Below are positions 8,710 to 30,880 of a DNA stretch of 40,042 nucleotides, one piece after another. Below the pieces are notes generated by a model. The model did not search any database. It was not told where the DNA came from and worked only from the letters and a program-made list of their open reading frames with translations. The stretch comes from a virus, in IMG/VR virus record IMGVR_UViG_3300028025_006607, positions 1 through 40,042 of that record, one strand, 5' to 3'. Each line of letters begins with the position of its first letter. Position 1 is the stretch's first letter. The position numbers were made by a program, and so were the translations under genes.

Positions 8710-8938
8710 AAATTATACCTTCAACTTCACCTTTGTTGTTGTAGATTTGTTCAGGAACTGAAATACGAAATTTTTTACCTTGAATAGAAAATGATCCACC
8801 TTGCCTAAGCATTTTTCTAAATAGATTTTCTTCTTTTTCAGTCCACTTTTCAGATAAAGCAATAGTTTCTTCTTTATTTAAAATAAGACCATCACTTGAG
8901 ATGGATGTGCCCCGGCGGATTGCTTGTTTTGTAATCAT
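8681..8938 (-). CDS. Unknown protein between polymerase halves
   Basis: The 85-residue protein is not recognised. It contains a basic start (TKQAIRRG), a helix rich in Lys and Glu (EKWTEKEENLFRKMLRQGG), then beta strands and an acidic tail. It is joined to both sides by overlaps: its ATG overlaps the polymerase N-terminal gene stop as ATGA, and its end overlaps the Smr gene by 29 bases. There is no homing-endonuclease motif (no GIY-YIG, HNH or LAGLIDADG). Confidence 0.6.
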   Translation of the reverse strand: MITKQAIRRGTSISSDGLILNKEETIALSEKWTEKEENLFRKMLRQGGSFSIQGKKFRISVPEQIYNNKGEVEGIIYEEETNENS

Positions 8939-10656
8939 AGTGTTAGTTCTCCTTTTAATACTTTGTTCATGTGCATGTTAGCAAATAAAGCTGATTCTTG
9001 AATAATACGTTGACCTGATAAAGTAATGGATTCGCTTAAAATTACATTACCATATCGGAATGACCCTAAAGCAGTAGCACCATACAATGAGTTTAATAAG
9101 ATTTTCATTGTGTGTTGCATTAGGTGGAATTTTTCCCCGTCTGCTTTGTTACCTAATTTATAGGCCGTTTTCATTTTATTTTTGTAAATAACTCGTTCCT
9201 CAAACCATTTTGCTAGGATGGTTTTTAAAACCGAGTCAAAATCTGTTCTGTACATTACCCCATTCGCTGAGAGAGAGAGATTAGATGATTCGATAAAAGA
9301 TATAATATCTTTTACTCTCATTTGAACTGTTTTACGTTTAGCGTTTTGGATGGTAAAAGTAAGGTCTGGATCCATTTTTTTTAGATCATTCAAACCATAG
9401 CGGCAGTTGAAAATTTCTTTGTTTTCAACTACTACTCTTTCATTAGGTACTAAAATTCGACCTACTAATGTTTCTTTACCAATGTTTAGAGACATGATAA
9501 TAGAGGGGTATAGTGAGGTTAAATCCTCGTCAAACATGTAGTTATACAGACCTGCTTGAGGGCAAAACAAATAACCACCTGCATAATTCTTTTTAATAAT
9601 AGGGGTGCGATCGCGAGCTGGTGGGATAATGTTCTGAGATAACAAATAAGCCGAAATAGCACCATCGTGAATCATACTATTCTTATAAACGTCCGAATAG
9701 TTGATTTTACCTTTGTGGGCTAGGTTTTTAGTTAAAGGGAGATATTGGAATTTCTCGTCTAATGCTTTTAAAATTTCTACGTCTCGAAAGTTGTAAGCAA
9801 TAAACTTTTGTTTGTCTTCTCTAAACAAGCGATCTAAACTACCCTCGTACTCGATTTTTTCTAAACCAACGTATTTTTTTCCTAATGCATCTAATTTGAA
9901 AGAAGGTTCATCTCTAAAGCTAAACTTTTTATGTAGCTTCATATAATCCAAAGACTCGGTACCTGCTATCTTCAACCAACCATCTCGGTTCCATTCACTC
10001 TCATCTACTACAATTCCGATAGGAGATAGCATATTAGCTACTTCTTGATCGAATACATTGCAAAGGCGATAGTACAAGTAGGGTATGTCAAAGTAGTCGC
10101 TATTGTAACCAACTAAAATATCTGGGTTGATGTTACGAAGATGATTCAAAAAAGATTCGAGTAATTGTTTCTCAGTTTTAACTGGGATGATTTCTCGATT
10201 ATCTTCTTGTGCTTGTTGGAGTTCTCCCTTTTTGTCTAGGATAAGGATTTTCCATTCATCTTTTTGACGGTGCCACCAAGCTATAGAAGTGATAGGTTTT
10301 GGAGCGCTGCGGATATAATCTTCGGTAAGCGCACCCCCCATTTCACACTCTATATCAAAAAATACCTCTTGGTGAGTAACAGATGGTTCGTCATTTGCCC
10401 CGTACATATCCACTAGAAACCTTTGATAAGGTCGCATGTCGTGAAGGTGTAGATTGGGATTATCTTTTGTCCATCGAGTTACTTTACGAAGTGATTCTTG
10501 TCTTAGACCCCTAATGTTTCGATGGGCATCATGATCACTACACTCCTCGTAGGCATGGTAGTTCCAGACCATTACCTGGTAACCACCATCGTCCCACAAG
10601 TGAACTCTGTAGTTGTTATCCTTAAGGGGTTGAACAAAACAAGATTTATAACTCAT
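8935..10656 (-). CDS. DNA polymerase family B, N-terminal part (3'-5' exonuclease, motifs A and B)
   Basis: The 573-residue protein has the three exonuclease motifs: FFDIECEMGG (Exo I), VGYNSDYFDIPYLYYRL (Exo II) and AYNFRDVEIL (Exo III). It also has polymerase motif A DEDLTSLYPSIIMSLN and motif B KILLNSLYGA. The reading frame then stops after KVLKGELTL, before motif C. The missing motif C and thumb are in the separate gene at 7553-8482. Together they would be the replicative, proofreading polymerase. The upstream MazG-like gene ends at the same base where this starts. All catalytic motifs are intact, so the split looks functional rather than decayed. Confidence 0.93.
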   Translation of the reverse strand: MSYKSCFVQPLKDNNYRVHLWDDGGYQVMVWNYHAYEECSDHDAHRNIRGLRQESLRKVTRWTKDNPNLHLHDMRPYQRFLVDMYGANDEPSVTHQEVFFDIECEMGGALTEDYIRSAPKPITSIAWWHRQKDEWKILILDKKGELQQAQEDNREIIPVKTEKQLLESFLNHLRNINPDILVGYNSDYFDIPYLYYRLCNVFDQEVANMLSPIGIVVDESEWNRDGWLKIAGTESLDYMKLHKKFSFRDEPSFKLDALGKKYVGLEKIEYEGSLDRLFREDKQKFIAYNFRDVEILKALDEKFQYLPLTKNLAHKGKINYSDVYKNSMIHDGAISAYLLSQNIIPPARDRTPIIKKNYAGGYLFCPQAGLYNYMFDEDLTSLYPSIIMSLNIGKETLVGRILVPNERVVVENKEIFNCRYGLNDLKKMDPDLTFTIQNAKRKTVQMRVKDIISFIESSNLSLSANGVMYRTDFDSVLKTILAKWFEERVIYKNKMKTAYKLGNKADGEKFHLMQHTMKILLNSLYGATALGSFRYGNVILSESITLSGQRIIQESALFANMHMNKVLKGELTL

Positions 10657-11276: not shown

Positions 11277-11454
11277 ATTTGTTTTGTTGGGTTAAATGAC
11301 GATAAAAACGCTCGCTTACTACATTAGTCCAGGTGTGGATTCGACCCTCACTAAAACTGTTTTTTTGTTTTGGGTCGATTAGTATTTGAAGATTACCTTG
11401 TAGTTCAGCTACAATCAAGCGTTTGATTTCTTCTTCAGATAGAGATATTTCCAT
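11245..11454 (-). CDS. Small protein of unknown function
   Basis: The 69-residue protein has an amphipathic helix at the start (LSEEEIKRLIVAELQGNLQI) and a mixed C-terminal half with SFSEGRIHTWTNVVSERF. It is not recognised. It overlaps folE by 20 bases at its start and the MazG-like gene by 32 bases at its end, in a different frame from each, so it fits the operon style seen throughout. Confidence 0.55.
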   Translation of the reverse strand: MEISLSEEEIKRLIVAELQGNLQILIDPKQKNSFSEGRIHTWTNVVSERFYRHLTQQNKYESLTRTYPD

Positions 11455-12139
11455 TGTTAATTTTTAGTGAATCAAAAAATTCTTGGCGAGCTTGGTTACT
11501 GTTATCCATAAACACACCAGATGCTTTAGTAGTTACCATTGCTGCACCTTGGTGGTTAATACCTCGGCAAGATACACAATTGTGTGATGCAACCACAGTT
11601 ACAATAACACCCTTATTATTCTCACAAACTTTATCTACTGCTTGGTGAATAGCTGAGGTAAGTTGCTCTTGGATAGCACCTCTACGACCAAAATGTTCTA
11701 CAATTCGATTCAGTTTAGATAATCCAATTACACGGCCATTATCTCCAGCTACATAACCAATGTGTACTACACCACGAATTGTTTGGTGGTGGTGTGAACA
11801 CATTGAGGTAAGTTGAATGTTACGTTCAATGACAATTCCATCATAACCATCACTTGGGAATGAGGTGATCTCTGTAAAGTTGTTGTAACGACCTTTCCAC
11901 AAATCGTTTACGTATGCTTTAGCTACGCGACGAGGTGTCTCCATTGAGTTAGGATCGTTTTGCCAATCACATTTTAGAGCAGTAAGAAACTTTCCAAAAT
12001 GTTCTGCTGCTTCATCAATCATTTGATCCTTTTGTTCTTGGGAGAGTGGAAAATCTCCGGCTACACCATTTGCGAACCCTGCTGGTACACATTCAATGTC
12101 GTTGTATTTCTTACGACGCTTGTTTTCAATATTTTCCAT
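11435..12139 (-). CDS. folE: GTP cyclohydrolase I
   Basis: The protein, 234 residues from ATG 12139, catalyses GTP to 7,8-dihydroneopterin triphosphate, the first step of 7-deazaguanine synthesis. The zinc and active-site motifs are visible: QLTSMCSHHHQTIRGVVHIG (Cys and His ligands), GLSKLNRIVEHFGRRGAIQE and ASHNCVSCRGINHQGA (the second Cys ligand). ATG 12139 is chosen over the upstream ATG at 12184 because the extra 15 residues overlap the upstream gene, and because the promoter-like element at 12155-12186 sits just before 12139. QueD, QueE and QueC encoded nearby would carry the product on to preQ0. Confidence 0.94.
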   Translation of the reverse strand: MENIENKRRKKYNDIECVPAGFANGVAGDFPLSQEQKDQMIDEAAEHFGKFLTALKCDWQNDPNSMETPRRVAKAYVNDLWKGRYNNFTEITSFPSDGYDGIVIERNIQLTSMCSHHHQTIRGVVHIGYVAGDNGRVIGLSKLNRIVEHFGRRGAIQEQLTSAIHQAVDKVCENNKGVIVTVVASHNCVSCRGINHQGAAMVTTKASGVFMDNSNQARQEFFDSLKINNGNISI

Positions 12140-12154
12140 ATAACTTATTTTACG

Positions 12155-12186
12155 TAAATATACGAAACAATTTTTACAAAGCAAAA
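12155..12186 (-). promoter_or_regulatory. Promoter-like element before folE
   Basis: On the minus strand TTTTGC is followed by TTTCG and TATATTTA in the same register as five other elements in the window. It spans the stop codon of the upstream phosphoribosyltransferase gene. The folE ATG lies 16 bases downstream. It would let folE and the genes below be transcribed separately from the upstream que genes. Confidence 0.6.
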
Positions 12187-12698
12187 ATTGACTTCAAATT
12201 TCTTTTATAACCTCCAGTTGAATCCATCCCATAACCAATCAGCCATTCATCTTCACATTCAAAAACGTATCTAAATGAGGCTACATAACTGTGTGATTCA
12301 ATAGGTTTAAACTCGTTTTTAGCTCGTTTAACTAAAGTAACAATATTGATTGTTTTAGCTCCTTTTAAATTAAAGTATTTAGCTAAAAATTTCATTGTTT
12401 CCCCTGAATCGAAAATATCATCTACAAGGTAAACGTGTTTTCCTTGCACTGATGTTTCAACGTCTTTAGTTAGATTAATACTACCTCGTTCTTTACCTGA
12501 ATATGATTTAACTCGAATAAAGTCACATTCTACATCAATATCTATGTTGCGGACTAGATCAGAATAGAACATAAATGCTCCATTTAATATTCCAACCATT
12601 ACAACTGGTGTAGCATCGTTAGCATGCTCACGAGAAATTTGTTGAGCAATAATTTTAGTTTTAATGTCTATATTATGTGCTGAATATAACTCAACCAT
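12174..12698 (-). CDS. Hypoxanthine phosphoribosyltransferase-like protein
   Basis: The protein is 174 residues from ATG 12698. It has the PRTase core: VVMVGILNGAFMFYSDLVR (loop I), FIRVKSYSGKERG (the flexible loop region) and the PRPP-binding motif VYLVDDIFDSGETM, then LVKRAKNE and WLIGYGMDSTGGY as in HPRT. It would join hypoxanthine or guanine to PRPP, giving IMP or GMP. In this cluster it could feed the GTP pool used by FolE; that is inference. ATG 12698 is preferred over 12728 because it overlaps the stop of the small upstream gene and begins the conserved domain. Confidence 0.85.
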   Translation of the reverse strand: MVELYSAHNIDIKTKIIAQQISREHANDATPVVMVGILNGAFMFYSDLVRNIDIDVECDFIRVKSYSGKERGSINLTKDVETSVQGKHVYLVDDIFDSGETMKFLAKYFNLKGAKTINIVTLVKRAKNEFKPIESHSYVASFRYVFECEDEWLIGYGMDSTGGYKRNLKSIFAL

Positions 12699-12825
12699 TT
12701 TTTTTACATTTTTTACAAATCCAAACAAAGTGAGGAATACTCCAATTATTCCTCTCTACTTTAACTCCTGTTTTGAATGTTATAAATTCTAAACAATCGT
12801 GACATACTATCTTTTCAGATTTCAT
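12691..12825 (-). CDS. Small zinc-ribbon-like protein (44 aa)
   Basis: A 44-codon frame from ATG 12825 to TGA 12691 has two Cys-x2-Cys knuckles, VCHDC near the start and ICKKC at the end, 28 residues apart, with aromatic residues between. This is the form of a minimal zinc ribbon. The start overlaps the preceding stop and the end overlaps the ATG of the phosphoribosyltransferase, and it fills an otherwise empty gap, which supports it as a real gene. The role is unknown. Confidence 0.6.
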   Translation of the reverse strand: MKSEKIVCHDCLEFITFKTGVKVERNNWSIPHFVWICKKCKKNG

Positions 12826-12994
12826 TACTATAAATAAATTCAAATGTTTCGTTTTCTTTAAAAGTTTTTAGACCACTATTACCTATGTAAGATAAAGAGT
12901 AACCATATATTTCTAAAGCTTTAATTACCGTTGCGGGTTCAATTATATTATTGGTCCATAAGGTCCAGAGGATTTGAAGATATTGATCAGGCAT
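12815..12994 (-). CDS. Small protein of unknown function (59 aa)
   Basis: A 59-codon frame begins at ATG 12994, overlapping the SET gene stop in a TAATG, and ends at TGA 12815 inside the zinc-ribbon gene. The product is helical at the N-terminus (YLQILWTLWTNNIIEPATVI) with a beta-like C-terminal part and no known motif. Support comes from the tight overlaps at both ends and the lack of any other frame in the gap. Confidence 0.55.
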   Translation of the reverse strand: MPDQYLQILWTLWTNNIIEPATVIKALEIYGYSLSYIGNSGLKTFKENETFEFIYSNEI

Positions 12995-13383
12995 TATTTT
13001 CGTTCAATATTTGGATGGTTTTTCCAATAACCTTCTCCATAGTTAGTACAAATTTCTTCTCCGACTTCTATATCTCTAAGAGCTATAAATTTACAAGTAT
13101 TTTTTTTAACATCAAAAAACCAAGTAGCATTATTTTGATCTGAGTGATTATAGATACAACCATAACCTAAAGGTATAGTTTCAATAAATATACCATCTGA
13201 ATAGGTGTCGTGGTTGTGTTTAAAAGAGTAATCAGGGAATGCCATTCTATGTTCACTAGAAAGTGATAGAACAGGGCATTCCTCAATTATTTCTCCTTCA
13301 CAAATAACTTCTTTAGCAAAAACTCCTAGCCCATGTATTGAGCTACTTCGCATTATAACTTTATGAGCTATTTTAACTACCAT
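12994..13383 (-). CDS. SET domain protein, putative lysine methyltransferase
   Basis: The 129-residue protein is a compact SET domain. It has SSIHGLGVFAKEVICEGEII at the N-terminus (the x-G-x-G SAM-binding loop), YNHSDQNNATW (the NHS motif of the pseudoknot) and FIALRDIEVGEEICTNYGEGYW (the GEE...YG motif with the catalytic Tyr). Family members transfer methyl groups from S-adenosylmethionine to protein lysines. There is no post-SET cysteine cluster. It sits among 7-deazaguanine genes, 2 bases after queE. The target could be a host or phage protein; the sequence gives no hint. Confidence 0.87.
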   Translation of the reverse strand: MVVKIAHKVIMRSSSIHGLGVFAKEVICEGEIIEECPVLSLSSEHRMAFPDYSFKHNHDTYSDGIFIETIPLGYGCIYNHSDQNNATWFFDVKKNTCKFIALRDIEVGEEICTNYGEGYWKNHPNIERK

Positions 13384-13385
13384 GA

Positions 13386-14177
13386 TTAAACTTCTCTTTT
13401 TGTATCAAATGCAATTATGTGTTCACGGCCTGTAAAGTTGTACATATTTTCAGTACACCAATTAATTACCATAGGGTAAACACGGATTAGCTCTTCACGA
13501 TTATCACCAGGAGGCATAACCCAAATCTTATCTTTAGGTACCTCTAACTCATCCATAAATGCTCTAATTTCAGTCCAAACATCTGGACGTTCAACTGGGT
13601 TAACTACTACTTTCATGTGGTAGTCTGAGTGGTAAGCCATTGACTTTTTAATTGCATCTTTATTTAAACGCAAACTATTATGCTTATCAATCATTTTTTG
13701 GTCAGTAACTGAACCTTTTGGGGTTAGTACTCCTAAAACTGGGATAGAGTTTTTAAATTTGGGACTGAAGCTAACTAATCCAATAGGGTAATCAGTTTCA
13801 ACAAAATGACTTCCTTCCGTTTCAATAGTAATTATAATCCCACGTTCATTTGCAAAATGTGTTAATTCATTTACTAGTTTAGGCCACATTGTAGGTGAAC
13901 CCCCAGTTAACATCATTTCTTTAATTTCAGGATTAGCATCATACATCGCTACAATATCATTAAAACTATAACGAGCTTTTTCAGGATGAATAGATGTGTA
14001 AAAAGAATCACACCATCCACCTTCACCAAAATAACAGCGGTGGGTGCAACCCGTTGTACGAACCGCAACTGTGGGACGACCTGCTCTACTACCTTCACTT
14101 TGGATACAAGTATAAAGTTCTATTACACCTGCTAATTTTGCCTTTTCGGCTTCTGTCATTCTAGGAATTTGACTCAT
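13386..14177 (-). CDS. queE: 7-carboxy-7-deazaguanine synthase (radical SAM), QueE
   Basis: The 263-residue radical SAM enzyme would convert 6-carboxytetrahydropterin to 7-carboxy-7-deazaguanine. It starts with VIELYTCIQSEGSRAGRPT, the QueE substrate-loop motif (QGEG-like), then VAVRTTGCTHRC, EMMLTGGSPTMWPKLVNEL and IITIETEGSHF, followed by LVSFSPKFKN as in QueE. The cluster cysteines are Cys44, Cys48 and Cys56, a C-x3-C-x7-C spacing rather than the common C-x3-C-x2-C. The start overlaps the end of the HNH gene by 17 bases. The assignment is firm from the order of motifs and from the QueD and QueC genes nearby. Confidence 0.92.
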   Translation of the reverse strand: MSQIPRMTEAEKAKLAGVIELYTCIQSEGSRAGRPTVAVRTTGCTHRCYFGEGGWCDSFYTSIHPEKARYSFNDIVAMYDANPEIKEMMLTGGSPTMWPKLVNELTHFANERGIIITIETEGSHFVETDYPIGLVSFSPKFKNSIPVLGVLTPKGSVTDQKMIDKHNSLRLNKDAIKKSMAYHSDYHMKVVVNPVERPDVWTEIRAFMDELEVPKDKIWVMPPGDNREELIRVYPMVINWCTENMYNFTGREHIIAFDTKREV

Positions 14178-14529
14178 AATTAAATTTTAAATACTCTTCA
14201 AATGTAGTGATTCTTTTTTGTCTTTCCAAGTGATGATATTCAGCATGGCAGTTTCTACAAAGGGGCACACATTTTCTAATTTCTTTTTTTATACGTTCAA
14301 TACTATAAGCGTTGTATTGTAAATTTGTAACTCCTATTTCTTTAGTTTTAGGATCTAAATGATGAAATTCTATTAAGTACCATCTATCAAGATGACATTT
14401 CATACATTTTAATCTTTTTCTAACTCTTGTTATAAATTCTTTATTTCGCTTTTCGTAAGATTTTTTATGTTTTTTTGCTTTAGCACTATTTTCGGCATAA
14501 TACTTAGCATGATATTCTTTTGTTCCCAT
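14161..14529 (-). CDS. HNH endonuclease
   Basis: The protein is 122 residues from ATG 14529. A basic N-terminal half (KAKKHKKSYEKRNKEFITRV) precedes an HNH fold with zinc knuckles: LKCMKCHLDRW, then LIEFHHLDPKTKE (the catalytic HH), and CVPLCRNCHAEYHH. Such free-standing HNH genes are usually homing endonucleases in phages. It lies between queD and queE and is cut off from queD by the hairpin at 14541-14574, as expected for an inserted selfish gene. ATG 14529 is chosen because the ATG at 14556 lies inside that hairpin. Confidence 0.87.
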   Translation of the reverse strand: MGTKEYHAKYYAENSAKAKKHKKSYEKRNKEFITRVRKRLKCMKCHLDRWYLIEFHHLDPKTKEIGVTNLQYNAYSIERIKKEIRKCVPLCRNCHAEYHHLERQKRITTFEEYLKFNYESNS

Positions 14530-14540
14530 GGTTATAAATA

Positions 14541-14574
14541 TTAAGGGGGTTTCCAAAATATTGGTCCCCCTTAA
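14541..14574 (-). terminator. Strong hairpin, probable terminator after queD
   Basis: A perfect 9-bp stem (TTAAGGGGG with CCCCCTTAA) encloses a second 4-bp stem (CCAA with TTGG). On the minus strand it follows the queD stop at 14580 and is followed by an AT-rich stretch. It separates queD from the HNH gene. Confidence 0.7.
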
Positions 14575-14579
14575 ATTTA

Positions 14580-15044
14580 TTATCCTTTATAAAATGCTGT
14601 GTTCTTTTCGTGCTCACGGAATTCAACTTGAATTACCTTTACGCGTCCTTCGGTTTCAATTTGAACAAAATCGTTTAGTTTATTATAAAAATATTCAGCA
14701 AAACGTTCTGCTCCTGTAGCTGGGAGGATTCGAAGTTGGATAACTCCAAATCGTTCCATTGCTTTAAATCCTTCTAGTTCAGGATCATCTTCAGCTACAA
14801 GGGTAGTATGATCTAGCATATAATCCATCCATGCTTTAGGATTCATACCATCAATAGTATTTTTAGCACGTTTCATGCCTCCAAAATCCCAAACCCAGTT
14901 GCGTTCGTCAAGTTCACCTTCAAACCATACTCTAAGGCTTACCCCGTAACCATGTAGGAAACGACAATGAGTTCCTTCAGCTTTCCACTGACGGAATACT
15001 GTTGAATAACCATCAAATACTTTAGTGGATCTAAAACTACCCAT
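14580..15044 (-). CDS. queD: QueD-like 6-carboxytetrahydropterin synthase (variant zinc site)
   Basis: The 154-residue protein belongs to the PTPS/QueD family, which converts dihydroneopterin triphosphate to 6-carboxytetrahydropterin. Visible parts are HCRFLHGYGVSLRVWFEGEL with catalytic Cys27, NWVWDFGGMK, MLDHTTLVAEDDPEL with the Asp-His pair at 78-79, ATGAERFAEYFYNKL and the closing FREHEKNTAFY. Of the three zinc histidines of E. coli QueD, only His31 is kept; the others are Phe17 and Tyr33 by alignment. The FRQ...HCR.LHGY form appears to be a known QueD subfamily of bacteria and phages (from memory). It overlaps the thioredoxin gene by 8 bases. Confidence 0.88.
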   Translation of the reverse strand: MGSFRSTKVFDGYSTVFRQWKAEGTHCRFLHGYGVSLRVWFEGELDERNWVWDFGGMKRAKNTIDGMNPKAWMDYMLDHTTLVAEDDPELEGFKAMERFGVIQLRILPATGAERFAEYFYNKLNDFVQIETEGRVKVIQVEFREHEKNTAFYKG

Positions 15045-15294
15045 TCTTTTGGTTATAAAAGTCGATTACTTGTTGCATTGAACGAACACCTGTAAAACGT
15101 GCTTTTTCTTGTTCGTCTTCTACTAGAATAACTGTAGGAATACTCTTAATACCATAGGTTGTAGCGGCATCTGGGGTGTAGTCTACGTTAAGTTTTTTAA
15201 TAGACATACCTTGTTTAGCTAGTTCGTCCATTACAGGACCGAATTGTTTGCAGGGACCACACCAGTCCGCTGAAAAATACCATAATTGTTTCAT
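15037..15294 (-). CDS. Thioredoxin
   Basis: The 85-residue protein has the thioredoxin active site FSADWCGPCKQFGPVMDEL and the cis-proline segment YGIKSIPTVILV. It is shorter than E. coli thioredoxin (109), missing the first strand and helix. It would reduce disulphides in the cytoplasm and could recycle the phage ribonucleotide reductase encoded at 27-31 kb. The start overlaps the small membrane protein stop as ATGA. Confidence 0.94.
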   Translation of the reverse strand: MKQLWYFSADWCGPCKQFGPVMDELAKQGMSIKKLNVDYTPDAATTYGIKSIPTVILVEDEQEKARFTGVRSMQQVIDFYNQKNG

Positions 15295-15437
15295 TTTTTG
15301 TCTAAAAATTGATAATTAATAAAAAGAAACATAAACGCCGCGGCCATAAACCAATGACGACTTGATGCTTCAACTAATGAGCTTGCTAAAAAGCTCCAAT
15401 GTCCATATCTCAGAACCCAATCTCCAAATTTTTTCAT
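15291..15437 (-). CDS. Small membrane protein (48 aa)
   Basis: A 48-codon frame from ATG 15437 to TGA 15291 is linked by ATGA overlaps to the genes on both sides. The product starts KKFGDWVLRYGHWSFLASS and has one clear membrane segment (HWFMAAAFMFLFINYQFL) with a basic end. Its function is unknown. The double overlap makes it a likely real gene. Confidence 0.62.
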   Translation of the reverse strand: MKKFGDWVLRYGHWSFLASSLVEASSRHWFMAAAFMFLFINYQFLDKK

Positions 15438-15661
15438 ACCAGTTCCTCTAATATTCCTACTATTTCGCTAAATATAAGAACAAAAGCTGCGGTAGCCAAA
15501 TCAAATGGTATAAGAATATAACCAGTTATACGAATACTTGATTTGATAAAACTCATAATCTTATGCCATTTTTGATTAGGCATATGTTTTTGTTCTTCTT
15601 CCCAACGTTCTTTATTTTTACCGTTGAAAATGTCTCTGTAAATATTATTTCTATCGCTCAT
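15434..15661 (-). CDS. Small membrane protein (75 aa)
   Basis: The 75-residue protein has a charged N-terminal half (KNKERWEEEQKHMPNQKWHK) and a C-terminal hydrophobic stretch from about residue 44 (ITGYILIPFDLATAAFVLIF) through a second helix. Its start overlaps queC by 11 bases and its end overlaps the next small membrane gene. The function is unknown. Confidence 0.6.
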   Translation of the reverse strand: MSDRNNIYRDIFNGKNKERWEEEQKHMPNQKWHKIMSFIKSSIRITGYILIPFDLATAAFVLIFSEIVGILEELV

Positions 15662-16532
15662 GATTTTCTAGTACTTTAGTTACTTCTGCTACTACATGCT
15701 CCCAAGTCACAGGACCTGTCTCATCTGCATAAGGTGCAGGATCAGGACGACCTAGTTTAATAAATGCTTCAACTCGTTCAACTGAACTTGCTGATTTGTA
15801 ATCTGAATGCCATTGGTAATCAGGTCCTCCGGGTGTCATTCCCATAAAGACTAAGATTGGTTTATAAGATGTGTTTGTACGTTTGTAAACTTCCTCAAAG
15901 TCAATACCTAGCTCATCACATAGTTTTTCTCCGTCTTTTAAGATAGTGAACTTATCGCCTTCAAGATAAGGTGTCCAATAAGATACCCGATCACTATCCC
16001 AATTACCACTGCGGAAAGCAAAATCGTCCGCATCGCGGAATTCTTGTCTGCAGTCTGGGTAGATAGCGTGATCTCCTGCGTGGATTCCGAGGGCGATTGA
16101 ACAGTCTTCTTGTTTTTCATTAGCGATAGATAAAGCAATTGCTTGAGTAATTGAACTAAAGATTTTGTTTCGGTTTGGAACAACTGTTGCTTTCATATTT
16201 TCTTCAGCATAGTGTCCTTCAGGTACTTCGTCACCTCCAGTTACTAAAGCCGAGTTTAGTAGTTGACTCAGACCGTCAAGTTTAATTACCTGGTAGTTAA
16301 CTTTAGAGAAGTGATGCATAATAACTTCAGCTATATCGCTTTTATACTTAGTCTCATCAGCTCTGGCATTCAGGTAGTTAACCAGGTCTTGAGCTCGATC
16401 AAGCTCTACTCGATGTTTTTGACCATAATCAAATGATACTGCTGTTACAGTATCGAATTCGCTTAGCGCTCTAAGCAATAATGTTGAGGAATCCATTCCT
16501 CCAGATAACGAAACTACAACGTGTTTTGCCAT
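15651..16532 (-). CDS. queC: QueC-like 7-cyano-7-deazaguanine synthase (no zinc cysteines)
   Basis: The 293-residue ATP-dependent enzyme would convert 7-carboxy-7-deazaguanine to preQ0. The PP-loop VSLSGGMDSSTLL is at residues 7-19, followed by AVSFDYGQKHRVEL, TVVPNRNKIFSSI, LGIHAGDHAIYPDCRQEF and TPYLEGDKFTILKDGEKL, all standard QueC steps. QueC normally has four C-terminal Cys ligands (SC...CG.C..C). Here that region reads NTSYKPILVFMGMTPGGPDY then SDYKSASSVERVEAF, with none of them. It is also longer than typical QueC (about 220-240). It lies directly downstream of the DpdA-like gene. Confidence 0.87.
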   Translation of the reverse strand: MAKHVVVSLSGGMDSSTLLLRALSEFDTVTAVSFDYGQKHRVELDRAQDLVNYLNARADETKYKSDIAEVIMHHFSKVNYQVIKLDGLSQLLNSALVTGGDEVPEGHYAEENMKATVVPNRNKIFSSITQAIALSIANEKQEDCSIALGIHAGDHAIYPDCRQEFRDADDFAFRSGNWDSDRVSYWTPYLEGDKFTILKDGEKLCDELGIDFEEVYKRTNTSYKPILVFMGMTPGGPDYQWHSDYKSASSVERVEAFIKLGRPDPAPYADETGPVTWEHVVAEVTKVLENHER

Positions 16533-21105: not shown

Positions 21106-21525
21106 TTAAAGTGTTTTTAAAGCGTCCTCAAGAGAACGCTGTAGAGCTTTGGAGAATGCCTTTCTATTAAGCGGAACTTCATTGTTTTCAACATCTAAAG
21201 CAGCTGCGAATAATAATGTTTTTCTTTTAGCATCTCCTGCATATTCTTTCCCGTCAATAGTAATTTTAACCTCTACAATGTAATCTTTTCTTAACCATTG
21301 TAATCCTACTATGTTAAGTTTTTGTTGTGGGGATTCTATTTTAACAATTTCTACTGCAATATGACATGATAAAGGATTAATGTTTTTATCATATAGCAGT
21401 TCTTCAACTGTTTCTTTAACACCAAATCGAACATCTCTGTCTTCGATTGTTTGTACTGGGGTAGAGTTGATAACTGTATCAATCTGAGAGGTTGCTAGGG
21501 TAGCTGCTAATAAAAGTGATAACAT
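21106..21525 (-). CDS. Secreted or periplasmic protein of unknown function
   Basis: The 139-residue protein has a short hydrophobic start (MLSLLLAATLATSQ) that may be an export signal. The rest is beta-rich with a helical end (RKAFSKALQRSLEDALKTL). The shape recalls small periplasmic or lipid-linked envelope proteins, but no family is recognised. It is the downstream end of the envelope/secretion block: it starts 1 base after the stop of the GEVED protein gene. Confidence 0.55.
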   Translation of the reverse strand: MLSLLLAATLATSQIDTVINSTPVQTIEDRDVRFGVKETVEELLYDKNINPLSCHIAVEIVKIESPQQKLNIVGLQWLRKDYIVEVKITIDGKEYAGDAKRKTLLFAAALDVENNEVPLNRKAFSKALQRSLEDALKTL

Positions 21526-21526
21526 A

Positions 21527-22579
21527 CTAATTATTGTGTCCTGTTCGTATTAAGTAAAAATTTGTGCTACCTCGGTTTGTTAATCCGCTTGTAGTAACAC
21601 TTTGTTGTCCGGTATACGTATTTTTCAAATTACTACTAGAAGCATTTATAACATTCCATTCTGCAACAGTAAATATTCTATAATTAGGTACCCCTGGTCT
21701 CCAGCTTCTACCTATTATTCTCATAAAAGTTAAGTAAACATCTGTGATACTTAAGTTATTATCTCCGTTTACATCCATTCTATAATAGTCTTTAGATACA
21801 AATGATTGAGATAATACTTTTTGGTTGAATGCTTGGGCATCATTTATTAAGGGAGACGTTATAGATAGATTACCAAGACGTAATTCAAAATCATATAAAT
21901 TAGCATCTCTAGAAGATGTTAAATTATACCTACCATTAACATCTGTTGTATGGTTACTTAATAAAGTATAAGTAGCATCTGATTTTAATTTACTATAGAG
22001 CTGAAATGGTATATTAGGAATACCTACCCCGTTCGCTCCATAAACATACCCTGAATAAGAAAATGGGTCTTGTGCTCCTGTAATAGTGGTTCTAAAGTCA
22101 AATGTATTACCATATGAATAGTTACCACAAAGAGCAGGTGCTGCAGAATACACCATTATAAAACGAGCATAAACTTGCCCATTAAATACTGAAGTAGGTA
22201 CAGTAAAAGTGCTAGTAAAACTTCTAGTACCAGTCCAAACATCAGTATGTGAATAAACTAGTTCGCCAGCATCATTTAGATTACCATTACCATTAAAGTC
22301 AATCCATAATTTAAAATATTGCTGGTATGCTCCTTTAGTTTGGGCTGTAAATGAAATTGAAATGTTTTGCCCTGCGTTAATAGTAGGGATAGGAGTACCT
22401 GTATAATTGTAGTAACCAGGGCCTGTATAGTTTGTATTACCCTGATAGTATTGTCCGTTTATGGTTATATTAGCCATATATTCATAGCCAAAGCTAGTAG
22501 CACTACTAGCGCAAAGAGTAGTTTGGGCATATGATTTTATACCTAATAAAATAAATAATATTATGAGTAAGTTTCTCAT
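21527..22579 (-). CDS. Secreted GEVED-domain protein with dockerin-like module
   Basis: The 350-residue protein has a signal peptide (LLIILFILLGIKSYAQ). A GEVED-type beta domain follows (about 25-165), with FKLWIDFNGNGNLNDAGELV. A prealbumin-like domain (about 172-245) has GVGIPNIPFQLYSKLK and TDVNGRYNLT. A dockerin-like stretch is near 268-290 (MDVNGDNNLSITDVYLTFMR). The last two modules match those in the T9SS protein at 24917-26803. There is no T9SS signal at its own C-terminus. Such proteins act outside bacterial cells. It would be exported by Sec to the periplasm or beyond. Confidence 0.78.
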   Translation of the reverse strand: MRNLLIILFILLGIKSYAQTTLCASSATSFGYEYMANITINGQYYQGNTNYTGPGYYNYTGTPIPTINAGQNISISFTAQTKGAYQQYFKLWIDFNGNGNLNDAGELVYSHTDVWTGTRSFTSTFTVPTSVFNGQVYARFIMVYSAAPALCGNYSYGNTFDFRTTITGAQDPFSYSGYVYGANGVGIPNIPFQLYSKLKSDATYTLLSNHTTDVNGRYNLTSSRDANLYDFELRLGNLSITSPLINDAQAFNQKVLSQSFVSKDYYRMDVNGDNNLSITDVYLTFMRIIGRSWRPGVPNYRIFTVAEWNVINASSSNLKNTYTGQQSVTTSGLTNRGSTNFYLIRTGHNN

Positions 22580-23928
22580 AGTATAAGTTTGGAACCTAAT
22601 AGTACTTGGTAATTTAAAACATTAGCACCTGCTAAATAAGTTCCACCACCTGTTAATCCTACTCCAAATGTTTTAGTTAACTTGTAGTTTATATTAAAGA
22701 ATGGAATGACAATAGGTTTAGAATCAAACCAAGATTCAGTATAGTATTTTGAATAAGGAGCATAAACAGCAGCCGTAATTAAAGTACCATCTATATTTTT
22801 GTAAATTTTACCTTTATACATAAACCCAGCTACAGCTAGAGTTGATATAATAGGTTCTTTATATAAGTAACCAGCACTACCAGCAGCACCATAGATAGCA
22901 GTAAAACGTTTTAAACTGTTTACTCTGATGAACATAGTTGTATTAGTCCAGGAACCAGGTTGAATTGAAAATCCTGAAGATAATAAATTAATGTGTTTAT
23001 TGCCTTTTTCAGTAGTACCAATCCAAGATTTCATTAGTGTAATATTACTAATTTTAGCTCGAATCATGTAGTCGGCTGATAAGCCAAATGATGCTGTTCC
23101 GTCTCCTTTTACGCGAGTAAAAGAAAATGTACCTCTAGCATCATTAGTTTTATCATCTGTTTTTTGAAGACCAACTATATCACCAGTTACTAAAATAGCA
23201 GGCTTTTGTACTTGTGTTCTAGCTTTAGCTGTTGTTTTAGAAGTTTGGTTTGCTTCTGTTTTTTGTTGTTCTGTTTTTGCTTCGTCTATTTTTTCTTCAG
23301 ATGGTACTCCTTCTTGACTCTCCCCTTGAGTTTCTCCTGCTGTTGTTCCTCCGCTAGATTCGCTAGAGTTAGAACCCCCAGAATTAGGTTCGCTATTACC
23401 CCCACTACTACCAGAACCGGAATTTGAATTATTGGGGGAACCAGTGTTATTGCTATTGTTGTTATTGTTACTATTGTTACTTGAGCTGGTGGTATTTGAC
23501 TGGGGGTTGTTATTGTTTTCGTTAGTGTTGGAGTTGGATGAGTTAGTGGAGTTAATATTTCCTCCTAGATTCATAGAAGAAATAGACGTAACAGCACTTA
23601 AATTTAAAACACTATTAACTAGATTTGTAGTTAAATTTGTAGTAGATGTTGTTGTAACCGTGGTAAATACTTCATCACAAGGGGATGCTATAAAGTTAGA
23701 GTATACTTGGTTAAGCCACGTATCTAAAACACCACTAGAAATTTCATTGTAAGTAAATGCTCTAGTTTGCCCATAGTACGATACTATAATAGGAGCAGAC
23801 ATATCGTACATCAAAGTTTGCACTTGTTGAGTACAAGGGTCAACATACGAATACATGAAGGTCTGCCCTTTTAAGGACAAACCTCCAAGTAGGAATAATA
23901 AAGCTAATATTTTACTTTTCAAAAACAC
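22576..23928 (-). CDS. Exported protein with low-complexity linker and probable outer-membrane barrel
   Basis: The 450-residue protein has a signal peptide (SKILALLFLLGGLSLKGQ). An N-terminal domain (about 20-90) contains VDPCTQQVQTLMYDMS. A long Asn/Ser/Gly/Glu-rich linker (about 120-235) follows. The C-terminal 210 residues have alternating strands such as KDIVG..., FTRVKGDGTASFGLSADYMI and FGVGLTGGGTYLAGANVLNY, ending in KLIL. This is the pattern of a small outer-membrane beta barrel. It overlaps the CsgG-like gene by 17 bases. Similar marine-phage proteins may exist near csgG genes, but I cannot name a family. Location in the outer membrane is inferred. Confidence 0.7.
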   Translation of the reverse strand: MFLKSKILALLFLLGGLSLKGQTFMYSYVDPCTQQVQTLMYDMSAPIIVSYYGQTRAFTYNEISSGVLDTWLNQVYSNFIASPCDEVFTTVTTTSTTNLTTNLVNSVLNLSAVTSISSMNLGGNINSTNSSNSNTNENNNNPQSNTTSSSNNSNNNNNSNNTGSPNNSNSGSGSSGGNSEPNSGGSNSSESSGGTTAGETQGESQEGVPSEEKIDEAKTEQQKTEANQTSKTTAKARTQVQKPAILVTGDIVGLQKTDDKTNDARGTFSFTRVKGDGTASFGLSADYMIRAKISNITLMKSWIGTTEKGNKHINLLSSGFSIQPGSWTNTTMFIRVNSLKRFTAIYGAAGSAGYLYKEPIISTLAVAGFMYKGKIYKNIDGTLITAAVYAPYSKYYTESWFDSKPIVIPFFNINYKLTKTFGVGLTGGGTYLAGANVLNYQVLLGSKLIL

Positions 23929-24634
23929 CGTTCTTGATAAGTTTTTCGATTACATTAGTACTAGCAGTTTCTAATGATTTACGAGTTGCCTTACCAACTG
24001 TGCTTTGAGAGAAAGTCATACCATCTAATGACTTTAAGAATGCTTCACCAGTTTTAGTAGCCTCACCTTCACCTGAACCAATATAAATTTGGCCAGTTTC
24101 AGCGTTTACAAATCTAACTTGTAGTCTAATAAATGTAGTTACTACAACTTTAGCTTTGCCTTTTACTACTGTTTCGTCCTCATCAACAGCAAAGTCAGCT
24201 ACAGTTACGTAAACAAAGTAACGAGCAGCTTTAATTTTACCTTTACCGTCAATAGGCTCTTCAAAGACACCTTTTTTAGATGCTTTGAATTGGGTTACCA
24301 TTCTTTCTTTGATTTCAGATTTTTCTTCGGTAAAATCAAAGCGATTTGTTTCATCTAAATAATCAAGCACTGATTCAGCAAATCCTAAACCTACATTTTT
24401 TTCTTGTAAGCCAGGGTACATTTTAAATACTTTCTCTAAATCTACGTTCACAACTTGAACAGTAGTTTTAGCCCCAGTATAATCTGAAACTGTTGAAATG
24501 CTTTTAGATACTACTTCATCTCCATCAGTTACAGTTGACATTGAACCGCAACCTGATAATAGAAGGAGGAATACTAGACTACCAAGGATCTTCTTCACTT
24601 GTCTCTTCTTTTTTAGCAGGAGCTGGTTTTTCAA
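23912..24634 (-). CDS. CsgG-like outer-membrane lipoprotein
   Basis: The 240-residue protein has a lipoprotein signal (KKILGSLVFLLLLSGCGSMS, Cys29 being the likely lipidated residue). A CsgG-like body follows, with KTTVQVVNVDLEKVF, GFAESVLDYLDETNRFDFTE, AARYFVYVTVADFAVDEDE, AKVVVTTFIRLQVRFVNAETG and ending STNVIEKLIKN. CsgG family proteins form ring-shaped outer-membrane pores for curli subunits. CsgG homologues have been seen in some marine T4-like phages. A GTG at 24598 would give a shorter, more standard signal peptide (VKKILGSL) and cut the overlap with the upstream gene from 56 to 20 bases; the given start is the ATG. No curli subunit gene is seen. Confidence 0.72.
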   Translation of the reverse strand: MKNQLLLKKKRQVKKILGSLVFLLLLSGCGSMSTVTDGDEVVSKSISTVSDYTGAKTTVQVVNVDLEKVFKMYPGLQEKNVGLGFAESVLDYLDETNRFDFTEEKSEIKERMVTQFKASKKGVFEEPIDGKGKIKAARYFVYVTVADFAVDEDETVVKGKAKVVVTTFIRLQVRFVNAETGQIYIGSGEGEATKTGEAFLKSLDGMTFSQSTVGKATRKSLETASTNVIEKLIKNGVFEK

Positions 24635-24914
24635 TTACTCTTTCTCTAATTACAGTGTTACCACCGCTTTGTTTTTGTTGGTTAGTGTTTTCAATGTTAA
24701 CAACTATTGGAGCAGGAGTAGCACCACCAACTGGAGTAGTTTGAGCTGGGGCTTCAATTACTTGTTCAGTTTTTACTTCTGTTTCTTCTTCAACACCAAA
24801 AAATTTATTGATGTTTGTTGTTACGTAAACCCCAGCTGCTGTGACAGCAGTTGTAAGCACACCTATTATAGTCTTTTTAAGACCTGATAATCCGCCTTCT
24901 TGTTCTTCGCTCAT
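24579..24914 (-). CDS. Single-pass membrane protein with Pro/Glu-rich tail
   Basis: The 111-residue protein has one membrane segment (KKTIIGVLTTAVTAAGVYVT, about residues 13-33). A low-complexity tail follows, rich in Glu, Pro, Thr and Gln (EETEVKTEQVIEAPAQTTPV), ending EETSEEDPW. The tail could span the periplasm. The CsgG-like lipoprotein starts inside it in another frame, an arrangement that recalls Rz/Rz1 spanin pairs, but that likeness is only structural. It is not recognised. Confidence 0.6.
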   Translation of the reverse strand: MSEEQEGGLSGLKKTIIGVLTTAVTAAGVYVTTNINKFFGVEEETEVKTEQVIEAPAQTTPVGGATPAPIVVNIENTNQQKQSGGNTVIRERVIEKPAPAKKEETSEEDPW

Positions 24915-24916: not shown

Positions 24917-26803
24917 TTATTTAGATATTATAGTTCTACTTGTGGCAACCTGCTTACCAGTTAAAATAGAAGTGTAATAAACACCATTATTTAAAACTGA
25001 TAAGTCTACTTCATATACATATTGACCTGCGGGTACATATTCGTTAATAACCTGGATTAATTTTTTTCCTGTAATATCAAATATAGCTACTTCTGTTTTA
25101 GAGTCTTGTAAAACATTAAATTGAACTACAGCTAACCCTTTTGTAGGATTAGGGTAGGTTACAATATCAAACCCCTCTAGGGCTTTTGGGTCTGAATTAC
25201 GTTTTCTAATTTCGATTCTACCATTAGTAGGTTTGATATTCATATCACTTGATTGAACATCACCCACATATTTTTCAGCTACATAAAGTGGGGATACAGT
25301 CCAGTTTAGTTTAGGTTTTAAAGCAGTAAATTGTAGAGTAAACACTACATCACCATCTACTAAATTATTGTCGTTTGAAAAATCGGCTCCACCCCATTCT
25401 ATAGCACCGTTTGAAGGGTTAAAGTACGACATCCAATTCATTGCTTTTTCACTGTTTAAAACATTACTGAATGAAAGCAAATCTTGGTCGTATTTAACAT
25501 TTAATTGTAAAGCACTTAAGTTATCTTGACCAGTAACTACAGTTACAGGAACGTTTACTAGGTTACCTTCTGTTACTTCTAGGTCTGGGAATCTAACTTC
25601 AATTTCATCTATTACATTATCGTATTGAACTGTTTGGTCAATAATGTAGTTTGGAGCATTGTTTGGATTAACAATTGTTATGGGCACTAAACGTGCCATT
25701 TTAAAACCAGTTGAGTTAGCATCACCCTTAACCGCTACATAGTATGTAACTGAGTCTTTACCGTTAATTAAGTACTCAAAGTTAGTTACACCTGGGATTG
25801 TTGAAGCTTGGGATGTAGATGTACCATTGATTGTGTTACGTTGTGTTTCTGTAAAGAATAAAATATCAGGCACATTATTAGGCCAAGTAGCAAAATTACC
25901 AGCTAATTTACCAAACACAGCATACGCATCCGAAATTGTAACTGAGTTAGATCCGTTTACATCCATAGTATAAAAGTCAAATCCTGTTGGAGTGTATTGA
26001 CCTAATACTGCTTGGTTAACTTTTTGGGCGTCTGCCGTTGAAATTACATTACCAATTGTCATGGTATCACCCTGAACTTTGATACGAGCGTGCCAATAAG
26101 TAGTATCTAATGTTTGAGTAAAGCTAAATCTACCTACTGTATTTGTTTTAATTGTTTCTACAGTAGTCCAAGTTGAACCTGTTTTAGGTTTTTTCTCTAA
26201 AGATAACCATAAGTTTTTAGCTCCATTACCTGCTGGGGTTACAAAACGTCCTTTAAATGTAAAAGCACGTTGAGTAAAGTTACCACCATAAGAATACATT
26301 GTTAAAGTAGTATCGTTTCCTAAATTAGTAGCAGCTAAGTTACTAAATGTTTGAGTGCCTGAAATTTTTAAGTCTTTAATACTATCTAAAGTATTCCAAG
26401 TAGCAGGTACAGCATGAGTAAAAGTAATACCTACAGCAGCGCCATTGGCATAACTAAAGTTTGTATTAGTACCTGTATAAACTAAAGTAACTGTAATGTG
26501 ACCATCAGTTTGGTTAACTACATATTGCATGTATTGGTCTGTAGCACTATATTTTAAAGCTACTACAGGAGCAGCTCCATTAAAAGCTACTTTATCATAC
26601 CATACTCTAAATTGTAAACCAGTAATTTTTTTACCGTTTTGATTAGTATAGTATAAGTCGGCTTCTGTAGTACCTGTAGTTGAAGTACCTACAGTATAAG
26701 AAGTATCTAAAATTACCCAGTGACCATTACTTGGAGCAGGTAAAGTTTGACCAAAAGTTACTACTGTAAATAGTAAAGCTAAAATTGAAAGGAATTTTTT
26801 CAT
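24917..26803 (-). CDS. Secreted cohesin/dockerin-like protein with type A T9SS sorting domain
   Basis: The 628-residue protein has a signal peptide (KKFLSILALLFTVVTFGQ). A cohesin-like beta sandwich (about 20-165) follows, then a prealbumin-like domain (about 180-255) and a dockerin-like module with MDVNGSNSVTISDAYAVFGK (near 280-300). A second cohesin-like domain lies at about 400-530 (LQLNVKYDQDLLSFSNVLNS; NNLVDGDVVFTLQFTALKP). The last 75 residues are a type A T9SS signal: VTYPNPTKGLAVVQFNV, VAIFDITGKKLIQV, AGQYVYEVDLSVLNNGVYY and a final TSRTIISK. The T9SS would move it across the outer membrane and anchor or release it. It starts 4 bases inside the metallopeptidase-like gene and is in the same run as the CsgG-like gene. 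Confidence 0.87.
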   Translation of the reverse strand: MKKFLSILALLFTVVTFGQTLPAPSNGHWVILDTSYTVGTSTTGTTEADLYYTNQNGKKITGLQFRVWYDKVAFNGAAPVVALKYSATDQYMQYVVNQTDGHITVTLVYTGTNTNFSYANGAAVGITFTHAVPATWNTLDSIKDLKISGTQTFSNLAATNLGNDTTLTMYSYGGNFTQRAFTFKGRFVTPAGNGAKNLWLSLEKKPKTGSTWTTVETIKTNTVGRFSFTQTLDTTYWHARIKVQGDTMTIGNVISTADAQKVNQAVLGQYTPTGFDFYTMDVNGSNSVTISDAYAVFGKLAGNFATWPNNVPDILFFTETQRNTINGTSTSQASTIPGVTNFEYLINGKDSVTYYVAVKGDANSTGFKMARLVPITIVNPNNAPNYIIDQTVQYDNVIDEIEVRFPDLEVTEGNLVNVPVTVVTGQDNLSALQLNVKYDQDLLSFSNVLNSEKAMNWMSYFNPSNGAIEWGGADFSNDNNLVDGDVVFTLQFTALKPKLNWTVSPLYVAEKYVGDVQSSDMNIKPTNGRIEIRKRNSDPKALEGFDIVTYPNPTKGLAVVQFNVLQDSKTEVAIFDITGKKLIQVINEYVPAGQYVYEVDLSVLNNGVYYTSILTGKQVATSRTIISK

Positions 26804-27237
26804 TGGATGTGTTTTAAGGCGTTTTCTTTAAGCCAAGGTTCAGGGTTTGTTAGTTTTTGTATAAATTCTAATTCATATCGATAACAATAATTTTCTTCTT
26901 CAGCAGGGGTCATTTTTACCCCCTTACGTAGGAAGTATAAATGAAGGGATTCATGAATCAAAACACAAGCTAGGTTATTGACTCCTAGTTTTACGTCTTT
27001 AGTTGACACATAAATCCTACCTGTTTTTCCTACTAATTCATTAGAAGAAAAATTACTTATCCAAAAACTAACCTCCTGACAAACACTATCCAATAACTGG
27101 TGTTTTTGTAAATCGGTCTGTTTTATAACAGTAAGCGCTGAATCTATCTTTAAATCCCAACCATCTCCTGCTTTATCAACTCTAATTTGACCTGAGCAGG
27201 TAAACGGTATGAGAAGTAAAAGTAAAAACAGTCTCAT
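26800..27237 (-). CDS. Secreted small HExxH metallopeptidase-like protein
   Basis: The 145-residue protein has a signal peptide (RLFLLLLLIPFTCSGQ) and a zincin motif CVLIHESLHLYF (His95-Glu96-x2-His99). Acidic residues follow (TPAEEENYCYRYELEF) that could give the third zinc ligand. It is much smaller than most zinc proteases. Substrate and activity are unknown; it may trim a phage or host envelope protein. Its stop overlaps the start of the T9SS protein gene (ATGA), so the two are made together. It begins just below the terminator hairpin at 27252-27275. Confidence 0.72.
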   Translation of the reverse strand: MRLFLLLLLIPFTCSGQIRVDKAGDGWDLKIDSALTVIKQTDLQKHQLLDSVCQEVSFWISNFSSNELVGKTGRIYVSTKDVKLGVNNLACVLIHESLHLYFLRKGVKMTPAEEENYCYRYELEFIQKLTNPEPWLKENALKHIQ

Positions 27238-27251: not shown

Positions 27252-27275
27252 AAAAAGAGAGCATTGAATGCTCTC
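27252..27275 (-). terminator. Rho-independent terminator
   Basis: On the minus strand an 8-bp stem (GAGAGCAT with ATGCTCTC) with a 3-base loop is followed directly by TTTTTATATTT. It lies downstream of the coiled-coil gene (27303-27542) and just above the secreted metallopeptidase gene, so genes from 27237 leftward probably need their own promoter or read-through. Confidence 0.78.
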
Positions 27276-27302
27276 CTTCTTAAAAGTATTTTTAACTAAA
27301 AG

Positions 27303-29287: not shown

Positions 29288-30880
29288 TTATTTTATGATT
29301 GTTATATTGAATGTATGATTTTCTTTTTTAGAAGCCCAATTTAAGTATAAAGTCCCGTAATATACTCCAGGGGGAACATCACCACCGTTCCAATCGTTTT
29401 TGTAATCTGTTTGCTCATAAACTATTTTACCCCATCTATTGTAGATTACAATATAGTTAGTAGTCCAAGTGTTTAGATTTTTGATCTTAAACGTATCGTT
29501 AATATTATCTCCATTTGGAGTTAACACGTTTGGAATTGTTACTGGACGGGGTCTTGGACGAGGTTCAGGTTCAGGGCCATTTGGATCTTCGTCTAATTCA
29601 GGATCGATTGGAGGAGGGGGAGGAGGTGGGGGGCAGTCTTTAACTACAATTACTATTGTATCAAATTCTGACATAGGTAATCCACACTTATTGATTAAAG
29701 TATTTCCATCATCTCCTTTTTTACTGTAAAGATAATATCTTCCATTTAATTGGAGTCCAAAAGGAAAATATAACTCTAGAGAATCAGTTTCAGCGTTGAC
29801 ATCACAATTAGCCTGGATTTGAGTTATAGCTACAGGTTGACCATCGGGACCTGTCATTCTAAAGTCTGTAGTGTTAACTGAATAGCAGTCTAGCTTGATA
29901 TGGAATTTTAAAGTTAAACTAGTATCTCCACAACTTGCCTCTATGTAAGGTAAAGCAGTTAACGTGTCAATAGGATATAAAAAAGGATCATATTGTACAC
30001 CTTGGGTTGCTAACAGGTTGCAATTTGGAGAGACTGAGATCATCATGTCTCGGCTTGCACTTCCTACTTGATACCACGAACCATATAAAGTGTCGAATCT
30101 CCACTCTTCAACCAAAACTGATAATACATCAATTTCTACTTGGGTTGGAAGGAATGAAATTAACCCTGTACTAGGGTTAATGTTAAAGTAAGTTGAGGTA
30201 ACAGGTTGAGTTGCAGTCCAACCTGCATCAAATGGAATGTTTGTTTGGGTTGGGTAAGCTCCTTCTCTACAGTTAATTAAAGAGTAAACGATTGAATCAC
30301 CATTAGCCTCAATTACGGATTGCTTCCAGTTAAACGGATTACCCACACAGAATGCTCGTACTGGTTCACTTACAAAAATAGGAGATGAATTTTGCCCTTG
30401 TGTAGAATTGTCCAGTTTGGCATCAAAATAGAATCCATCGTTACCAAAAGCACCGTTTGATCCGTTTATATTGTTGATACCTCCTGGTCTGCAGCAATTG
30501 TCGTACCAAAATCTATAATCCGAGCAATTACCGGGTAAAATAACGTACCCAATGTATAAGTAAACCTCTAGCGTTTTGGTTGTAGGCCCAGGAACAACAC
30601 AATCAAATAAAGTAGGGGCTACTAAACCAGAACCAGGTTGCAAATTCATAGGAATGTTTATGTTTGAATAACATCCTGAACTAACTGTTACCTGATCTGT
30701 AGTGGGCATAGCAATACCTGTTACATCTCGATAAACTCGTAAGATAACTTTATAATGACGAGCTACTCCTGTTGAATCTCCTATGTAACGATACTGGATG
30801 TCACCTCCAGAGAGGTGACTACCCAGTAAAGATAAAGTGGAGAATAAAAAAGATAAAATTAAAAGATACTTTCGTCCCAT
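29288..30880 (-). CDS. Secreted protein with type B T9SS (gliding-motility) C-terminal domain
   Basis: The 530-residue protein has a signal peptide (YLLILSFLFSTLSLLGSH). The start SHLSGGDIQYRYIG is typical of large surface proteins of Bacteroidota. Cysteine-containing beta domains follow (to about residue 415), then a proline/acidic linker (DCPPPPPPPPIDPELDED; PEPEPRPRPRP). The C-terminal 85-residue domain has VLTPNGDNINDTFKIKNL, IVIYNRWGKIVYEQTDY and DWNGGDVPPGVYYG, the type B T9SS sorting domain (gliding-motility-associated). The gene lies inside the nrd operon, overlapping nrdB by 22 bases. Its role could be adhesion or change of the host surface; the sequence does not say. Confidence 0.9.
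   Translation of the reverse strand: MGRKYLLILSFLFSTLSLLGSHLSGGDIQYRYIGDSTGVARHYKVILRVYRDVTGIAMPTTDQVTVSSGCYSNINIPMNLQPGSGLVAPTLFDCVVPGPTTKTLEVYLYIGYVILPGNCSDYRFWYDNCCRPGGINNINGSNGAFGNDGFYFDAKLDNSTQGQNSSPIFVSEPVRAFCVGNPFNWKQSVIEANGDSIVYSLINCREGAYPTQTNIPFDAGWTATQPVTSTYFNINPSTGLISFLPTQVEIDVLSVLVEEWRFDTLYGSWYQVGSASRDMMISVSPNCNLLATQGVQYDPFLYPIDTLTALPYIEASCGDTSLTLKFHIKLDCYSVNTTDFRMTGPDGQPVAITQIQANCDVNAETDSLELYFPFGLQLNGRYYLYSKKGDDGNTLINKCGLPMSEFDTIVIVVKDCPPPPPPPPIDPELDEDPNGPEPEPRPRPRPVTIPNVLTPNGDNINDTFKIKNLNTWTTNYIVIYNRWGKIVYEQTDYKNDWNGGDVPPGVYYGTLYLNWASKKENHTFNITIIK

Follow-up and report, generated by a model that had tools for sequence, protein, structure and literature searches.

In the virus record analysed here, 40,042 bases in full (the window), the main genes lie on the minus strand. 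Among its genes are those for phage replication, ribonucleotide reductase, GroEL, an endolysin and a tail-lysozyme protein, together with queuosine-type genes. The gene followed up, C, is intact and stands second in a block of seven genes with the order Z-C-s-G-B-D-e (Table 1). The genes of the block abut or overlap in the window, and C overlaps its upstream gene by 4 bases. This order was nearly invariant in the approximately 150 loci examined, where the block usually lies near holin-like and endolysin genes. Signal peptides were predicted, by a simple heuristic, for proteins encoded between about 18.3 and 30.9 kb of the window and for none elsewhere in it. The terminator-like hairpin upstream of Z, a match to the consensus only, is consistent with a block starting at Z, while the total count of such hairpins in the window was not above that in shuffled sequences.

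Table 1. Features of the conserved block and of the separate type B gene in the window.
Feature	Position	Strand	Description
Type B T9SS protein	29288..30880	-	530 aa; signal peptide; type B domain at residues 448-520; between nrdB and nrdA
Terminator-like hairpin	27252..27280	-	directly upstream of Z; consensus match only
Gene Z	26800..27237	-	145 aa; predicted exported; HExxH motif
Gene C	24917..26803	-	628 aa; ATG start
C, putative Sec signal peptide	26750..26803	-	residues 1-18; cleavage before Q; own heuristic
C, transthyretin/CNA-B-like domain	26069..26275	-	residues 177-245; family profile against 2igl, E 0.0023; transthyretin-like match at 174-245
C, dockerin-like region	25868..26053	-	about residues 251-312; common to D
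C, cohesin	25208..25597	-	residues 403-532; Pfam PF00963, Foldseek, PDB profile
C, type A T9SS sorting domain	24926..25156	-	residues 550-626; PF18962, TIGR04183
Gene s	24579..24914	-	111 aa; one apparent N-terminal transmembrane segment; proline-rich tail; topology from sequence
Gene G	23912..24634	-	CsgG-family outer-membrane lipoprotein; lipobox SGC
Gene B	22576..23928	-	450 aa; signal peptide; Ser/Gly/Asn-rich linker; conserved C-terminal part
Gene D	21527..22579	-	350 aa; signal peptide; GEVED domain; dockerin-like C-terminal region
D, GEVED (exchangeable module)	22091..22318	-	residues 88-163; Pfam 5e-12
D, dockerin-like region	21677..21895	-	residues 229-301
Gene e	21106..21525	-	139 aa; possibly exported; closes the conserved block

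The C protein consists of a signal peptide, an N domain, a transthyretin/CNA-B-like domain, a dockerin-like region, a cohesin, a linker and a type A C-terminal domain of the type IX secretion system (T9SS), in this order. The original prediction had recognised this last domain from the motifs YPNPTKG, DITGKK and GVYY and the terminal IISK, all of which are found in C. Profile searches agreed, giving 1.1e-10 and 42 bits (cut-off 27) for PF18962 and 7.3e-10 and 38.7 bits (cut-off 23) for the NCBIfam model TIGR04183. The C family profile also matched PDB structures of T9SS type A domains (8glk, 1.3e-4; 8glj, 0.008), and in the AF2 model of C, whose overall confidence is low (pLDDT 50.7), the C-terminal domain is mostly confident, with seven strands. 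The signal peptide, likewise proposed before, was recovered by our heuristic in C and in 76 of 81 distinct homologues. Because a Sec signal together with a type A domain is the signature of T9SS export, C is predicted to be T9SS type A cargo and, as had been suggested, would cross both membranes by means of the host machinery.

The cohesin of the original prediction was also found, with a PF00963 match of 4.2e-6 and 27.4 bits (cut-off 24.1). A Foldseek search gave 43 PDB matches at E<=1e-3, mostly to cohesin modules (best 3.7e-7, with a probability of 1.00 to many cohesins), and these depend on the same low-confidence model of C. In a PDB profile search, the family profile matched cohesins of C. 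acetobutylicum as well. The N-terminal domain of C looked cohesin-like by eye, but it was rejected as a second cohesin, since hhalign gave no significant result (0.12).

C and D have in common a region of about 170 residues with a DVNGDN-type loop (hhalign of C residues 176-395 against the D C-terminus: 99.9, 1e-31). The earlier assignment of a dockerin-like module held up, but more weakly. About a dozen dockerin chains were among the PDB matches of the dockerin-like profile (best 0.0045), and of the two F-hand repeats, one has a full, conserved calcium loop. However, the best member of the family scored 0.0068 and 17 bits against Pfam Dockerin_1 (PF00404), under the cut-off of 22.9, and the other repeat is degenerate. 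In C itself, it is the first repeat that is degenerate, and the single full EF-type loop reads DVNGSNSVTISD. Binding to the cohesin is thus not assured, as the region falls under the Pfam cut-off and has one full calcium loop only.

Relatives of C numbered 15 and then 297 in two IMG/VR scans, so that at least 297 contigs contain one. PF18962 was matched at E<=0.001 in 13 of 14 related IMG/VR records, one of these matches (G001) lying under the curated cut-off, and also in the cultured Flavobacterium phage immuto. The sole related record with no match ends inside the gene (G009). The tag occurred exactly once in 15 of the 16 records searched (the window, 13 relatives and immuto) and exactly once per genome in all 11 long relatives (102-176 kb). 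It was seen in 81 of 81 distinct complete C homologues, 78 by a narrow pattern and three by eye. This recurrence across the relatives and immuto indicates that the tag in C is not there by chance. The majority identity was 0.80-0.85 in the C ectodomain, 0.50 in the linker and 0.62 in the tag; a bacterial tag-only match (L177) was left out of this sub-alignment. Lower conservation is usual for T9SS signals. One phage homologue bears the UniProt name 'Secretion system C-terminal sorting domain'. A tblastn search with the bare tag (83 aa) gave no match in isolate phages, the method being too weak for a short and divergent domain.

It is conceivable that the block consists of host surface genes acquired by chance and has no role in infection, as hosts carry many T9SS tags (one Flavobacteriales genome gave 98 matches). 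This reading is largely contradicted by the block, whose sequence and gene order are conserved throughout a broad group of phages, and we regard it as highly improbable. In addition, our GTDB scan found only one full-length C relative, with 51% identity, on a 16.5-kb contig in a Sphingomonadaceae bin (RFPL01000028.1), which is probably a mis-binned phage contig; the scan gave one tag-only match besides. The G family was found in 0 of 296 Bacteroidota genomes, in a search that had no positive control. Both results argue that the block is not recent host DNA.

The partner gene D encodes a protein with no T9SS tag and no obvious signal for outer-membrane export. With the immuto D as the query, D was found in 12 of 12 long genomes and C in 10 of the 12, and nothing else was matched. 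The 86 distinct D proteins carry a C-type lectin (35), one unassigned domain (26), GEVED (16) or PA14 (9). When the domain type was placed on the tree of the C ectodomain, at least 23 changes were required, while the minimum would be three. For example, the D proteins of L152 (lectin) and L156 (GEVED) differ in type, whereas their C proteins are nearly identical. These frequent changes suggest a constant scaffold and an often-exchanged binding module, and they are expected of a part that faces a ligand. That the C-type lectin is the target of a diversity-generating retroelement was considered and rejected on its pattern of variation. The lectin has no hypervariable sites and varies less than the dockerin-like part does, and exchange of whole domains therefore fits better.

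The swapping of domains in D, among them lectin, PA14 and GEVED, resembles that in receptor-binding proteins, and a virion part would show the same pattern. C and D might then sit in the particle for host recognition, with D as the exchangeable receptor-binding tip; phage tails often contain Ig-like and adhesin folds. However, the signal peptides in 76 of 81 C and 84 of 86 D proteins (the latter also by heuristic) would send both to the periplasm before assembly in the cytoplasm, which makes incorporation into virions unlikely. The T9SS tag is retained by every intact C, and the block sits between nucleotide-metabolism and endolysin genes. We give this explanation a low probability, the lowest of those that assign the block a function.

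Another use of a binding domain would be ecological, in that the lectins could fasten the infected cell to particles, to algae or to its neighbours, and so increase the yield or the odds of meeting new hosts. The binding domains of D are of glycan type, and T9SS cargo in Bacteroidota often serves in adhesion and polysaccharide use. Against this stand the shortness of infection and the fact that neither C nor D showed a catalytic domain, and the exchange rate of D fits an arms race at least equally well. Such a foraging aid seems unlikely to us.

HExxH was kept in 63 of 63 Z homologues, so Z is a candidate zincin-like metallopeptidase. G was related to bacterial CsgG by hhalign (93.6, 2e-7, 157 columns), while unrelated controls gave at most 7; the bacterial comparison set excludes a different, 460-aa kind of CsgG. 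The top Foldseek match of G was CsgFG (E 0.038), from a model of low confidence (pLDDT about 50). Sequence searches against the PDB or Pfam gave no match or a weak one to CsgG, the Pfam CsgG model matching weakly in 3 of 16 members and not at all in the G of the window. Since both the profile-profile and the fold comparisons support CsgG, we assign G to the CsgG family of lipoproteins, and its role as a multimeric outer-membrane pore is a prediction. The C-terminal part of B looks like a putative outer-membrane barrel. Gene e was tried as a CsgG-like partner and gave no signal against CsgG. A gene for a 127-aa membrane protein lies between C and s in many relatives, namely in L156 (2420-2800) and as 64 other distinct sequences, but it is not present in the window. 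The genes s and G overlap, and by eye their topology is like that of a spanin pair, one member in the inner and the other in the outer membrane, although G, with 240 aa, is related to CsgG.

This part of the block could be taken for a helper of lysis, in which s and G would be spanin-like or form an outer-membrane pore, Z would cut, and C, D and B would aid release. Holin-like and endolysin genes adjoin the block, s and G overlap as spanin genes do, and a CsgG-family lipoprotein and a protein with HExxH would suit the opening of an envelope. However, G at 240 aa with CsgG homology is unlike a small o-spanin, and the cohesin, the dockerin-like regions, the exchangeable domains and the T9SS tag would all be left unexplained. 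We consider this, too, an improbable account of the block.

The phage immuto (MW353175, Immutovirus) carries the same block as gp13-gp19, of which its record annotation names a lectin and a cohesin domain and nothing more. As in the window, there are homologues of C, s, G, B and e, and its gp13 has a lectin and a dockerin-like region. Unlike in the window, C is divided between two genes in immuto, and D lies upstream of C. Its gp14 corresponds to the dockerin-like half of C and gp15 to the cohesin and the tag, and each begins with a signal-peptide-like sequence. This split is as expected if the two halves meet non-covalently. Flavobacterium, the host genus of this cultured relative, is known for T9SS, and the virus of the window probably infects Flavobacterium-like bacteria as well.

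Taken together, we favour the reading that the block encodes a cohesin scaffold displayed by the T9SS on the infected cell, where it would present an exchangeable, docked D domain (probability about 0.58). From the sequences, we infer export and anchoring of C, docking with D and a route for D. C would be made during infection and cross the inner membrane by its Sec signal. Its type A domain would then be recognised by the host T9SS, which would carry it across the outer membrane and leave it on the cell surface. There, the cohesin would hold D through the dockerin-like region of D. A second C might be held in the same way through its own such region, which would build a short chain. The ligand-binding domain of D (GEVED here; C-type lectin, PA14 or the unassigned domain in relatives) would thus be presented on the infected cell. 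As D has no T9SS tag, it might leave through the putative G pore of the block or travel out bound to C in a folded state; movement of folded proteins by T9SS has been described (PMC9251779).

Blocking of re-infection, adhesion and help in lysis are all possible purposes of such a display. The original prediction had named blocking of superinfection, aggregation of cells or holding of receptors as examples; each of these may be right, and the sequences do not discriminate between them. Modification of the surface seems the most likely to us. Our first choice, which we put forward tentatively, is masking or altering of surface glycans to keep competing phages, or the offspring of the phage itself, from adsorbing to infected cells and to debris; the reason is that the exchanged part faces the ligand. 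The fullest version of the reading, a cellulosome-like display in which a T9SS-anchored cohesin scaffold carries interchangeable dockerin-bearing lectins delivered through the phage's own CsgG-type pore, changes the set of glycans that the infected cell binds or exposes and so controls who adsorbs, is possible but more doubtful.

The block resembles a cellulosome in its cohesin fold, in the DVNxDG-type loops on the partners and in an anchored scaffold with docked modules, the docking here being predicted. Cellulosomes differ in that they are anchored by bacterial scaffoldins, whereas the block has one full calcium loop, no enzymes and a predicted anchoring of phage cargo by T9SS. G is like the CsgG curli channel in being a lipoprotein with homology at the profile level; no curlin-like subunit was recognised beside it. 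The csgG gene has been listed among phage-carried genes in a marine survey (PMC7003362).

The original prediction had called a phage gene of this kind very unusual. It is no isolated case, since relatives occur widely within one group of phages, and T9SS type A cargo of phages had already been reported (PMC7468147 and PMC6949934). Cryophage has genes for type A cargo (endoglucanase, GH39 and a PA14 protein), for which its authors suggested that they employ the host system and act in superinfection exclusion (PMC7468147). By its reported domains, it is like the window in having phage type A sorting domains and variable cargo that includes PA14. However, the variable cargo of Cryophage is itself tagged, while the window has one conserved tagged scaffold, an untagged exchangeable partner and a CsgG-family gene. 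The crAss-like BACON phages of Bacteroidota also have T9SS sorting domains, with other domains and in another gene context, and the available text of that report contains no mention of cohesin or dockerin (PMC6949934). In the open-access literature, we found no report of cohesin or dockerin in such phages, nor of any system that joins a cohesin scaffold to a docked lectin of exchangeable type and to a CsgG-family gene. What is new here is the elaborate version with a scaffold and an exchangeable partner. The informative unit is accordingly wider than gene C, and comprises the whole block with D and the CsgG-family lipoprotein, plus a separate type B protein; the original prediction for C had named none of these.

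If the reading is right, the dedicated surface export of the host is hijacked by Bacteroidota phages of a widespread group, which remodel infected cells with an exchangeable lectin. This would offer a testable system for phage control of adsorption to infected cells. It would also give a reason why the T9SS state of a host may affect infection beyond loss of the receptor. Immuto on Flavobacterium sp. LMO8 would serve as a cultured model with a naturally split scaffold.

The separate type B protein matched CHU_C with 3.8e-19 and 69 bits (cut-off 27). Nine relatives were found, with 65-82% identity in their best segments, and eight of them gave a type B score, the ninth being cut short. All relatives with flanking genes adjoin nrdB or nrdA. 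In four of them (L231, L233, L236 and L237), the Z-C-s-G-B-D-e block is seemingly absent after nrdA. A stretch like the type B tag region (6e-4) was also seen at 519121-519387 of LR756502.1, a 642-kb record of an uncultured phage.

Elsewhere in the window, the DNA polymerase is split over two ORFs (7553-10656; phrog_262 positions 62-567 and 565-841) with two small ORFs between them. A phage GroEL-like chaperonin at 4475-6461 is followed by a small gene, maybe for a co-chaperonin. GTP cyclohydrolase, QueE-like and QueC-like genes lie at 11435-16532 and probably belong to a 7-deazaguanine DNA modification or queuosine pathway.
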